Of a DNA stretch of 57,511 bases, positions 29,531 to 34,794 are shown piece after piece. Below the pieces are notes generated by a model. The model ran no database searches. It was not told the DNA's origin and worked only from the letters and a program-made list of their open reading frames with translations. Position numbers and translations under genes: made by a program. The stretch is from NCBI GenBank assembly GCA_949292525.1, contig CASEZJ010000001.1, positions 1 through 57,511 of the forward strand, written 5' to 3'. The stretch comes from an uncultured bacterium (lineage in GTDB: Bacteria; Bacillota_I; Bacilli_A; Acholeplasmatales; Anaeroplasmataceae). Position 1 is the first letter of the stretch. Each line of letters starts with the position of its first letter.

Positions 29531-30421
29531 ATGGAACATAACAAACATTTAGATGATGCATTTAGAGTTATTATTGTTATTTTTACATCTGTTTTATATT
29601 GTTTAGGCTTAATATGGTTTTTAGAACCAGCAGGAATTTATTCAGCTGGAATAACTGGGTTTTCACAAATAGTAAAAAAACTATTTGATCCTCTAGCTAA
29701 TATTCCTCTAGGTGTTTATACATTAATTTTTAATATTCCGTTATTCATATATGGATGGCGTAAGGTTTCTAAAAGATTTGCAATATTTAGCTTAATTTCC
29801 GTTTTAGTTCAAACAATCTGTACTTTAGATATAATTCCTGTTGATCCAGTTATTAAGGCTTTTAAATTAGACCCAACTGAAAATCAATTAACTTATGCTA
29901 TTATAGGGGCAATCTTAACAGGTGTAGCCTGTGGTGTTGCGTTAAGATTTGGTACATCAACAGGAGGACTTGATATTTTAGGTCAAGTCTTAGCTATTGA
30001 AAGGAATATTTCAATTGGTGTTTTCACGATGATAGCCAATGTTTTAATCGCTATTGTTGGTGGTGCGTTCGTTTCAAATTCTTGGCCAATTGCTTTTTAT
30101 ACTACAATAAGAATTATTATTACTAGTATTTGTATTGATAAAATTCATACAGCATATAATTATGTTAAATTAAATATAATTTCTAGTAATGTGGATGATG
30201 AAATGTTAAAGGACTTATTAGCTATGCATAGGGGATGTACAATCATACCTGTAGAAGGTGCATATTCTCATCAACATAAGTCAGATTTAATTATGGTTAT
30301 TTCAGCATATGAACTAGATAAGGCAATAAGAATTTGTAAAACGCATGATCCGAGATGCTTTATCATTGTTGAACCTGTTAAAAGAGTATATGGTAATTAT
30401 ACTCGTAAATCAATTGTTTAG
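29531..30421 (+). CDS. YitT-family membrane protein (DUF161/DUF2179)
   Basis: A 296-residue protein with five to six membrane helices (FLEPAGIYSAGITGFSQIV; GVALRFGTSTGGLDILGQVL) and a C-terminal cytosolic DUF2179 domain (HRGCTIIPVEGAYSH). The family is widespread in Firmicutes; its transported substrate is not established. It is probably cotranscribed with metG, whose stop is one base upstream. A 12-bp terminator follows. Confidence 0.88.
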   Translation: MEHNKHLDDAFRVIIVIFTSVLYCLGLIWFLEPAGIYSAGITGFSQIVKKLFDPLANIPLGVYTLIFNIPLFIYGWRKVSKRFAIFSLISVLVQTICTLDIIPVDPVIKAFKLDPTENQLTYAIIGAILTGVACGVALRFGTSTGGLDILGQVLAIERNISIGVFTMIANVLIAIVGGAFVSNSWPIAFYTTIRIIITSICIDKIHTAYNYVKLNIISSNVDDEMLKDLLAMHRGCTIIPVEGAYSHQHKSDLIMVISAYELDKAIRICKTHDPRCFIIVEPVKRVYGNYTRKSIV

Positions 30422-30425
30422 TTTT

Positions 30426-30459
30426 AAATTGGCTAATAATTAGAATTAGCCAATTTTTT
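30426..30459 (+). terminator. terminator after the YitT gene
   Basis: AAATTGGCTAAT (30426-30437) pairs perfectly with ATTAGCCAATTT (30445-30456), followed by TTT. Confidence 0.9.
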
Positions 30460-30487: not shown

Positions 30488-32014
30488 ATGCTTAAATTAT
30501 TACTTAAACTTAAAGATGGATTTATATCAATATTACCAATTTATTTGATAATAATAATTTTAAATTTCACCCCTTATATAGATTTATCTAATTATGAAAT
30601 ATTAGTTTTATCTTTCGCAACCATACTTGCGACATTAGGGTTAGCGTTATTTAATATGGGTAGTGATTTAGCCATGACTCCAATGGGGAAATTAAGTGGA
30701 TCTTATCTCACTAAGCAAGGTAAGATGTGGATACTAGTGTTTTTTGCTTTTGCTTTAGGCTTTTTCATAACTTTAGCAGAGCCTAATTTAGCTATTTTAG
30801 GTAGCCAAATCAAAGCTTTATTAAGCCCACTCCTAATTACGATTTCAGTAGCATTTGGAGTCGGTTTAGCATTTGTACTACTTGTTGTTAGAGCTATTCA
30901 TAAAGTTAATTTAGCTCAAATTTTTCTGTTTTTATATGGCTTAGCTTTTGCTTTAGTAACATTAGTTATTTATACAGGTAGTAGCGATTTTTTAGGTTTT
31001 ATTTATGATTCTGGTGGAGTTACAACCGGACCGGTAACAGTCCCATTTATGATGGCGGTTTGTATAGGTATATCTAGTGTATTAGCTAAAAAATCAGATA
31101 AAGATATGTCATTTGGTTTAATTGGTATTGTTTGTATAATGTCAATTATTGTTATGCTTTTTTTAGGTATTTTTATAGAATATAATGGCGATTTTACACT
31201 TGATAAATCATTATATGAAATAGGAACAAACTTTGGTTTGGCAATAATAAACAATTTATGGTCATCTATAAAAAGTGTTTTCTTATCTTTAGTTTTAATA
31301 GTTGCCTTCTTTTTGATAATTAATTTTATATTTATTAAATTACCAAAAAAGAAACTTGAAACATTAGGAATAGGAGTAATATATTCATTTTTTGGTTTAT
31401 CTTTCTTTTTAACAGCTGTTAATTTAGCCTATATGCCGGTTGCTTATAAACTTGGGGGACAACTAGCAAATCATCAAAGTTTATTATATATAATAAGTTT
31501 TATTATTGGTGCTGTTTCAGTCTTTGCTGAACCAGCGGTTCATGTTTTAGTTAAACAAGTTAATGATATTACAAATGGTATTATTAAAAAGACTACAATG
31601 TTAATTGGTCTAATCATTGGGGTTGGATTTTCAATAGTGTTAGCTGTACTAAGAATTGTTTATGGATTTGAAATAATGTTTATTTTAGTCCCAGCTTTAG
31701 TTTTAGCATTAGTAATGAGTTTCTTTATTCCGAAAATATATGTAGCGATAGCCTTTGATTCCGGTGGGGTTGCGGCCGGAGCACTGACAAGTGGTTTTGT
31801 TTTACCTTTTGCGATTGGCATATGTATGGGTATGGGTTACCTAGATAGTGAAACTTTAAGACTTGGATTTGGGGTTGTATCTTTAGTTTCAATTACACCA
31901 GTAATAGTAATAGAGCTTATTGGTTTATTTGCTTTAATTAAAGATAAGATTAAAATGAAGCGGCAAGTTGAAAAAATGATCCAAGCTAGTGATGAAATAA
32001 TAATTAAATTTTGA
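30488..32014 (+). CDS. DUF1538 multi-pass membrane protein
   Basis: A 508-residue protein with about 12 hydrophobic segments in two homologous halves. Paired motifs occur in both: LAEPNLAILGSQI against FAEPAVHVLVKQV, and DSGGVTTGPVTVPF against DSGGVAAGALTSGF. These are the DUF1538 signatures, and the inverted-repeat-like design suggests a transporter or channel. AAGGAGG before ATG 30488. Two PII-like genes follow with overlaps, which suggests gating of this protein by small signal proteins, as GlnK controls AmtB. The substrate is unknown. Confidence 0.8.
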   Translation: MLKLLLKLKDGFISILPIYLIIIILNFTPYIDLSNYEILVLSFATILATLGLALFNMGSDLAMTPMGKLSGSYLTKQGKMWILVFFAFALGFFITLAEPNLAILGSQIKALLSPLLITISVAFGVGLAFVLLVVRAIHKVNLAQIFLFLYGLAFALVTLVIYTGSSDFLGFIYDSGGVTTGPVTVPFMMAVCIGISSVLAKKSDKDMSFGLIGIVCIMSIIVMLFLGIFIEYNGDFTLDKSLYEIGTNFGLAIINNLWSSIKSVFLSLVLIVAFFLIINFIFIKLPKKKLETLGIGVIYSFFGLSFFLTAVNLAYMPVAYKLGGQLANHQSLLYIISFIIGAVSVFAEPAVHVLVKQVNDITNGIIKKTTMLIGLIIGVGFSIVLAVLRIVYGFEIMFILVPALVLALVMSFFIPKIYVAIAFDSGGVAAGALTSGFVLPFAIGICMGMGYLDSETLRLGFGVVSLVSITPVIVIELIGLFALIKDKIKMKRQVEKMIQASDEIIIKF

Positions 32015-32022
32015 GGTGTGAT

Positions 32023-32400
32023 ATGGCAAAATTAAGTAAAAAAAATAATAACATGAAAAAGCTTGTTGCCATAATTACTATTATGCCTACAAATAAAAAT
32101 GCGGTTATTTTAGATTTAATAGAAAAATATGGTGTAAATTACCATTTAAGTTTCTTAGGCGAGGGCTCGGCAAGTAATGAAATTTTGGCGATGTTAGGTC
32201 TAAGTGAAAGTAGAAGAATAGTAACAATTAGCTTTATTCGCGAAGACAAAGCTAAAGATTGTCTAGATGCAGTTGAAGACAAAATAAATCAACTAGCATT
32301 GCATGCTATCGCATTTTGTGTAAATTTAGATAGTATCATAGGCTTAAAAAATTATTTATTTTTAGCAGATTTAGGAGGCAAAGCATGGAAAAAGAATTAG
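32023..32400 (+). CDS. PII-like regulatory protein 1
   Basis: A 125-residue protein with a ferredoxin-like fold in PII style: VAIITIMPTNKNAVILDLIE, then LGEGSASNEILAMLG (T-loop region) and RIVTISFIREDKA. ATG 32023 follows GAGGTG; TTG 32011 lies inside the end of the DUF1538 gene. The overlap with that gene indicates a shared operon. It lacks the UTase tyrosine context of classical GlnB. It probably binds a nucleotide and docks to the membrane partner; this is inference. Confidence 0.65.
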   Translation: MAKLSKKNNNMKKLVAIITIMPTNKNAVILDLIEKYGVNYHLSFLGEGSASNEILAMLGLSESRRIVTISFIREDKAKDCLDAVEDKINQLALHAIAFCVNLDSIIGLKNYLFLADLGGKAWKKN

Positions 32401-32726
32401 CATTATTAATGATTATAGTTAATAGCGGTTATAGTGAAGAAGCGATAAGTTTATTACAAAGTTTAGGAGCTAGAGGAGCTACAATTTTAAATGGTAGTGG
32501 TGCAGTTAAGCCAGAAGCTAAGAAATTATATGGAATTGAAATAAATCCTGAAAAAGAAGTTTTGCTCGTTGTAGTAGCTAAAAACTTATTAGATGATATA
32601 ATGACAAACATATATGAAAAGTTAGGTTCTACTACCTTAGCTCAAGGCGTAGCATTTAGTTTACCAATTAGTTATGCAACAAGTAATTTATTTGCCCAAT
32701 TTGCCGACCAAAAGCCAAGTGAATAG
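32385..32726 (+). CDS. PII-like regulatory protein 2
   Basis: A 113-residue PII-like protein: LLMIIVNSGYSEEAISLLQS, then the Gly-rich T-loop GARGATILNGSG and VLLVVVAKNLLDDIMTNIYE. It overlaps the first PII-like gene by 16 bases. The two are only distantly alike, so they may form a heteromer or respond to different signals. No ligand can be read from sequence. Confidence 0.72.
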   Translation: MEKELALLMIIVNSGYSEEAISLLQSLGARGATILNGSGAVKPEAKKLYGIEINPEKEVLLVVVAKNLLDDIMTNIYEKLGSTTLAQGVAFSLPISYATSNLFAQFADQKPSE

Positions 32727-34542: not shown

Positions 34543-34794
34543 ATGCTAGAATATAGATATGACACTCAATTACTTATTGAGGGTGAAGATTTAGACGAAA
34601 ATAAAATTGTAGATTATTTTAATAATAATTTTAAAGGAGATTGTTTATTAGCAGTAGGCGATGATGAATTAATTAAAATTCATTATCACACTAATGAACC
34701 ATGGAAAGTTTTAGAATATTGTCGTACCTTAGGTGAAATATACGATATTGTTGTTGAAGACATGGAAAGACAATCTAGAGGTTTGAAAGGATAG
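34543..34794 (+). CDS. stand-alone FakA C-terminal-like domain protein
   Basis: An 83-residue protein that resembles the C-terminal domain of FakA/YloV, the ATP-dependent fatty-acid kinase. It has the start YRYDTQLLIEGE, the GDCLLAVGDDELIKIHYHTN core (GDS..V..D..KVH.HTN in FakA), and a closing DIVVEDMERQ. The kinase (DAK2) and middle domains are missing, yet promoter, ribosome site and terminator are all present, so it appears to be a real small gene and not a fragment. It could bind FakB or another partner, or be a relic under selection. Function unknown. Confidence 0.6.
   Translation: MLEYRYDTQLLIEGEDLDENKIVDYFNNNFKGDCLLAVGDDELIKIHYHTNEPWKVLEYCRTLGEIYDIVVEDMERQSRGLKG

Follow-up and report, generated by a model that had tools for sequence, protein, structure and literature searches.

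What function does a membrane protein of the DUF1538 family have when its gene is followed by genes of two different PII-like proteins? Such an arrangement was found in the window, the whole stretch of 57,511 nucleotides analysed here, which comes from an assembly of an uncultured bacterium of the family Anaeroplasmataceae (1.24 Mb, 60 contigs, 92% complete). Signalling proteins of the PII class are very widespread. The only transporter targets listed for them in a 2023 review are Amt, Nrt, Urt and SbtA, which they gate, and the same review suggests that they act on trimers (PMC10710835). A sequence-only reading of the window had proposed three open reading frames at 30488-32726, a two-repeat DUF1538 protein and then two different PII-like proteins, and its coordinates proved exact:

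30426..30456, forward strand: A+T-rich hairpin with a T run after it, in the stretch that separates the YitT gene from the operon downstream; probable intrinsic terminator
30488..32014, forward strand: gene of the DUF1538 membrane protein, 508 aa, with two PF07556 stretches
32023..32400, forward strand: gene of PII-A, 125 aa, counted from ATG 32023; divergent, PII-like
32385..32726, forward strand: gene of PII-B, 113 aa; PII-like

The hairpin has a folding energy of -12.5 kcal/mol (z -3.6, RNA fold) and is absent from the terminator list of the consensus scan; given that it is a probable intrinsic terminator, the operon likely starts after it. The genes of PII-A and PII-B overlap by 16 nt, with an AGGAGG site located 5' of the PII-B ATG, so that the overlapping frames proposed earlier are present in this pair. 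The genes of DUF1538 and PII-A overlap only if TTG 32011 is the start; with the likelier ATG 32023, they are separated by a gap of 8 nt.

Two ribosomal protein genes downstream of the operon are presumably those of L13 and S9, judging from their sequences. In the 83-aa open reading frame at 34543-34794, the one match is to the middle domain (PF21645, E 1e-19) of subunit A of fatty acid kinase; the other parts of this subunit are missing. The gene directly upstream of the operon (29531-30421) is that of a YitT membrane protein whose C-terminal part is a DUF2179 domain. This domain has been called PII-like (PMC6516651), so that a membrane protein with PII fused in cis adjoins a trans module consisting of DUF1538, PII-A and PII-B. 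Proteins of the YitT-DUF2179 type, e.g., Borrelia BB0017, resemble the operon in combining a membrane protein with a PII-like domain (PMC6516651), but belong to another membrane family and carry the PII part in fused form, whereas it is separate here.

The product of the gene 30488-32014 contains two stretches of PF07556 (DUF1538), with E 5e-101 and 336.7 bits against the Pfam cut-off of 22.6. In this family, the pair UmpAB of Halomonas zhaodongensis was shown in 2017 to be a Na+(Li+,K+)/H+ antiporter, which provides salt tolerance to E. coli KNabc, performs antiport in everted vesicles with K0.5 of 0.26-0.46 mM and is reported as a heterodimer (PMC5484666). The earlier statement that the substrate of such a system is not described is therefore no longer tenable, though UmpAB is a distant relative. 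UmpAB is carried by name in NCBIfam, and the window protein does not reach the equivalog cut-offs of either model, scoring 127.5 bits with UmpA (NF041627, cut-off 490) and 109.1 bits with UmpB (NF041628, cut-off 500). It is approximately one third identical to the halves of a Methylocystis umpA-umpB-type pair, which itself scores below these cut-offs. Similar to the window protein, UmpAB belongs to DUF1538 and consists of two homologous halves of seven spans each, and split members of the UmpAB type share the acids and DxGG motifs with it; the halves are separate in UmpAB and fused here. Transfer of the UmpAB substrate to the window protein would follow this kinship and is uncertain, because the scores lie far below the cut-offs.

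The AlphaFold model of the DUF1538 protein is confident (pLDDT 90.5, pTM 0.90). Fourteen membrane spans are predicted, with both the N- and C-terminus on the cytosolic side, and Lys and Arg residues cluster at alternating ends, which in our own reading fits the positive-inside rule for 14 spans. With 14 spans and both termini in the cytosol, the second repeat would be inverted. The conserved acidic residues are as follows:

30779..30781, forward strand: E98, repeat 1, in an AEP motif at a helix break (model helices 80-96 and 99-107)
31007..31009, forward strand: D174, repeat 1, in DSGGVTTG beside a broken helix (166-178 / 184-199)
31529..31531, forward strand: E348, repeat 2, counterpart of E98
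31757..31759, forward strand: D424, repeat 2, counterpart of D174, in DSGGVAAG, helix break 429/432

Each of these residues is invariant in both alignments of relatives (21/21 and 79/79), and exactly four acids have this property, two per repeat, at matching places at or near helix breaks. A Glu replaces the first Asp (position of D174) in one clade of Clostridia, and a few distant DUF1538 members deviate from the motifs. The core contains only one invariant basic residue against the four invariant acids. Judging from the alignments and the model, four invariant acids at helix breaks are what would be expected of an ion site. The model itself gave no significant match in Foldseek, the best rows being the VcINDY anion/Na+ symporter and EAAT3 (E 0.04), or in VIA-align, where a Na/Ca exchanger (Z 3.9, rmsd 5.9, 177 residues) was within noise, and a search of solved structures with the DUF1538 profile produced nothing useful. 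Novelty of the fold does not follow from the absence of a clear PDB match.

Both small proteins proved to be PII-like. For PII-A alone, no Pfam model matched; however, 34 of the 81 members of its family match P-II at E <= 0.01, and its profile aligns with that of PII-B over 104 columns (hhalign probability 98.7%). Its AlphaFold model (pLDDT 88.9) has the ferredoxin-like fold of PII proteins and retrieves SbtB and other PII-like structures in Foldseek (E 4e-5, probability 1.00), the nearest solved folds being SbtB, CPII, PstA and CutA. PII-B alone is a borderline match to PF00543 (P-II) in Pfam, with E 2.7e-5 and 24.9 bits against a cut-off of 25, and the profile of its 79 relatives matches solved PII proteins with a best E of 8.6e-7. 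PII-A and PII-B are paralogues, and the order A then B is kept almost always.

PII-B retains the Gly-rich stretch before the T-loop and one Gly of the B-loop. Its residue K57, the Lys of strand 3, is invariant in 79 relatives and aligns with the corresponding Lys of 9p1x; we take it to be the equivalent of GlnB K58 of the 2-oxoglutarate site. Profile alignments place aqGvvf of PII-B against GDGRIF of 9p1x and GDGKIF of GlnK1, so that the classical Lys/Arg of the B-loop is replaced, while the classical C-terminal RVR/IR aligns with positions without conserved basic residues. The residues which hold the ATP phosphates in classical PII proteins are thus not kept in these alignments, and the Tyr of the T-loop is mostly Phe in the consensus of relatives. 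An adenine nucleotide or c-di-AMP may be bound by PII-A and PII-B in another way.

Public annotation designates the neighbours of DUF1538 as P-II family nitrogen regulators. A GlnB/GlnK-like sensor of nitrogen status, acting on an ion exchanger, would be consistent with the similarity of PII-B to PF00543 and with the tandem genes, which recall NifI1/NifI2, but the loss of the B-loop Lys and of the C-terminal Arg pair, the replacement of the T-loop Tyr and the absence of a second PF00543 gene from the genome make it very improbable. NifI1 and NifI2 are two different tandem PII proteins encoded beside their target, nitrogenase; PII-A and PII-B are likewise a tandem pair of different PII proteins, unlike them encoded beside a transporter. 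Since potassium transport of Gram-positive bacteria is usually regulated by c-di-AMP, this nucleotide is another candidate for the sensed signal. SbtB and PstA, found in the Foldseek rows (7obj, 4wk1), bind c-di-AMP, and diadenylate cyclase is encoded in 7 of 7 congeners and in most of the order. In a relative with two DUF1538 operons (G004), the cyclase gene lies on the same strand as one of them (L012:3625-8454), some 2 kb upstream, which may hint at c-di-AMP. Against this, PII-A and PII-B gave no match at E <= 1 to the c-di-AMP receptor family of Pfam (PstA/DarA), and the cyclase was not found in the genome of the window, probably owing to a gap in the 92% complete assembly. The use of the latter absence to exclude c-di-AMP was withdrawn, since all congeners possess the cyclase; sensing of c-di-AMP by the pair is nevertheless distinctly unlikely.

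The association of DUF1538 with PII was traced across genomes. PII-like genes lie downstream of DUF1538 in 19 of 20 loci from relatives of the order. Among 149 genomes sampled evenly from the window's phylum, DUF1538 was found in 15, with PII-B in 15/15, and PII-B-like matches, one of them weak, were found in 2/134 genomes without DUF1538; the Fisher p of 9e-19 is only nominal, because the sampled genomes are related. Of 199 genomes sampled from the phylum to which a Clostridiales record belongs, 67 contain DUF1538, and the PII domain is missing from one of the 70 loci read, which is cut off by a contig edge. Of the named loci, the 80 with the best matches, less independent because they were chosen by similarity, have PII-A adjacent in 80/80 and PII-B in 78/80; both gaps are close to the end of a contig. 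In total, PII domains are encoded directly downstream in 185 of about 187 DUF1538 loci, a set which includes a few duplicates of one contig; one exception is cut by a contig end and the other, L025, is real. Lack of co-occurrence across genomes, by which the sequence-only reading proposed to refute itself, was therefore tested and did not occur. Since it is seen in 19 of 20 loci from the order and in nearly all of the about 187 loci, the adjacency is not due to chance.

This linkage holds in Bacilli and Clostridia as well as in records titled Bacteroidales and in alphaproteobacterial ones, and the partners occur fused, split, singly or in tandem. The alphaproteobacterial plasmids of Chelativorans and Methylocystis contain split genes of the umpA-umpB type followed by a single P-II gene, while Paraclostridium and Peptoclostridium contain a fused DUF1538 gene and, after it, the gene of a single tandem PII protein (222 aa). 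DUF1538 and PII are each fused or split in places, yet they stay together.

Several further arrangements were observed. In one relative of the order, PII-A and PII-B are fused into a protein of 219 aa (L024:2179-2838), as in many Clostridia. Three PII genes (B-like, A and B) follow DUF1538 in one relative (L026:4484-5455). Orphan PII-A/PII-B pairs without an adjacent DUF1538 gene were found at L145:3843-4554 and L146:3692-4376; the latter precedes genes of an ABC-type ATPase and a membrane protein and may represent another PII-linked transporter. P-II matches are also contained in open frames about 590 aa long (G011:C24, G013:C61, G017:C50, G020:C48), possibly fusions of a transporter with PII, e.g., Amt-GlnK.

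The best explanation is that the three genes form an operon for a cation/H+ antiporter, most likely Na+(Li+,K+)/H+, gated by a complex of PII-A and PII-B (probability about 0.55); the operon seems to code for a sensor-gated ion exchanger not described previously. By inference, the assembly of A with B, docking, direction of control, ligand and substrate in the window protein would take the following form. The DUF1538 protein would be a secondary transporter with two seven-span repeats in opposite orientation, each repeat contributing one Glu and one Asp at helix breaks, and the four acids would constitute a cation/proton site. PII-A and PII-B may assemble into a hetero-oligomer, as suggested by the tandem PII proteins of other family members, and bind a small molecule between the subunits, an adenine nucleotide being the likeliest class. 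This complex would dock on the cytosolic face of the antiporter, perhaps at a conserved DDxxIIxF tail, and hold it shut or open. The small-molecule-gated transport system proposed earlier is thus supported as regards the PII-like identity of both proteins and their cross-phyla tie to DUF1538.

The tail proposed for docking is located at the end of the DUF1538 protein:

31991..32011, forward strand: cytosolic C-terminal tail DEIIIKF, candidate PII docking peptide; family consensus DDEQIIxF

Residues I506 and F508 are invariant in 79/79 relatives and D502 is found in 75/79, which makes the DDxxIIxF tail an attractive candidate. It is present in 97 of 104 loci with separate A and B genes and is rarer elsewhere. 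A tree of 89 proteins shows only 4 changes of PII architecture and 7 of the tail, and no association between the two was detected in independent pairs. The tail is accordingly regarded as a conserved feature of the clade and not as proof of docking; the link of tail to architecture is confounded by phylogeny, and the comparative argument for docking was rejected.

Among known systems, SbtA-SbtB, the cyanobacterial bicarbonate transporter with its PII-like inhibitor, resembles the operon in combining a membrane transporter with a PII-like partner, and SbtB entries are the best structural matches of PII-A; the operon differs in having two different PII proteins and in a DUF1538 protein without a significant Foldseek match. 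In GlnK-AmtB, the PII gene also adjoins the transporter gene and GlnK gates AmtB, but DUF1538 is not an ammonium transporter and the classical residues binding ATP phosphates are not kept here.

A PII-gated transporter of another substrate (e.g., an anion, amino acid or bicarbonate), with UmpAB as a specialised relative, is possible, if on balance doubtful. Its distance from UmpAB in bit scores (127.5/490 and 109.1/500), the VcINDY and EAAT3 rows, insignificant as they are, and the bicarbonate precedent of SbtA-SbtB (PMC8352866) are in keeping with this reading. It fits less well with the acid pairs and motifs common to split UmpA/UmpB-type proteins, with the excess of invariant acids over basic residues in the core, which fits cations, and with growth pH, since DUF1538 is among the features predicting it in bacteria (PMC13255231). 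That the PII-like proteins do not gate at all, serving as structural subunits or acting elsewhere and merely being co-expressed with the transporter, is rather unlikely: the orphan pairs, the DUF1538 gene without PII at L025 and the activity of UmpAB in E. coli agree with it, but the linkage in 185/187 loci is maintained over all the lineages and arrangements named above. The UmpAB paper mentions no PII protein, and no PII gene is reported beside UmpAB (PMC5484666); PII is therefore not needed for transport as such.

Certain observations also count against the antiporter gated by PII-A/PII-B, namely, the low scores with the UmpA and UmpB models, the reported heterodimer of UmpAB compared with trimers among known PII-gated transporters (PMC10710835), the orphan pairs, three PF00999 antiporters encoded in the same genome, and the classical ATP-phosphate residues, which are not kept in the alignments. 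In its favour, a PF00543 search of the window's own genome detected no protein besides PII-B, and together with the tie to DUF1538 across phyla this makes a dedicated transporter regulator the simplest reading. The loss of these residues from PII-B, with no other PF00543 protein in the genome, likewise argues against a nitrogen sensor of the GlnK kind. The three PF00999 antiporters also rule out DUF1538 as the sole antiporter of the genome; no PF03553 antiporter was found in it.

In the literature searched, which leaves out most subscription journals, DUF1538 occurs in five papers, and no publication joining DUF1538 or UmpAB with PII was found; the earlier judgement that this system may be among the least understood was right in that respect. 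New here is a PII-linked operon with a new transporter family, including, in this branch, two different PII proteins. It is an even matter whether the whole family of DUF1538 cation/proton antiporters is under dedicated PII-type sensors, as an obligate pair in many anaerobic gut lineages. If the proposed gating is true, this would be, to our knowledge, the first PII-gated cation/H+ antiporter, and the balance of sodium or potassium and of pH would be tied directly to a cellular small-molecule signal. A near-universal PII link with an antiporter family, the studied member of which is reported as a heterodimer, would widen the trimer-based picture of PII action. For work on UmpAB, a PII protein becomes the candidate for a missing partner, and the linkage predicts direct control of ion and pH homeostasis by PII.
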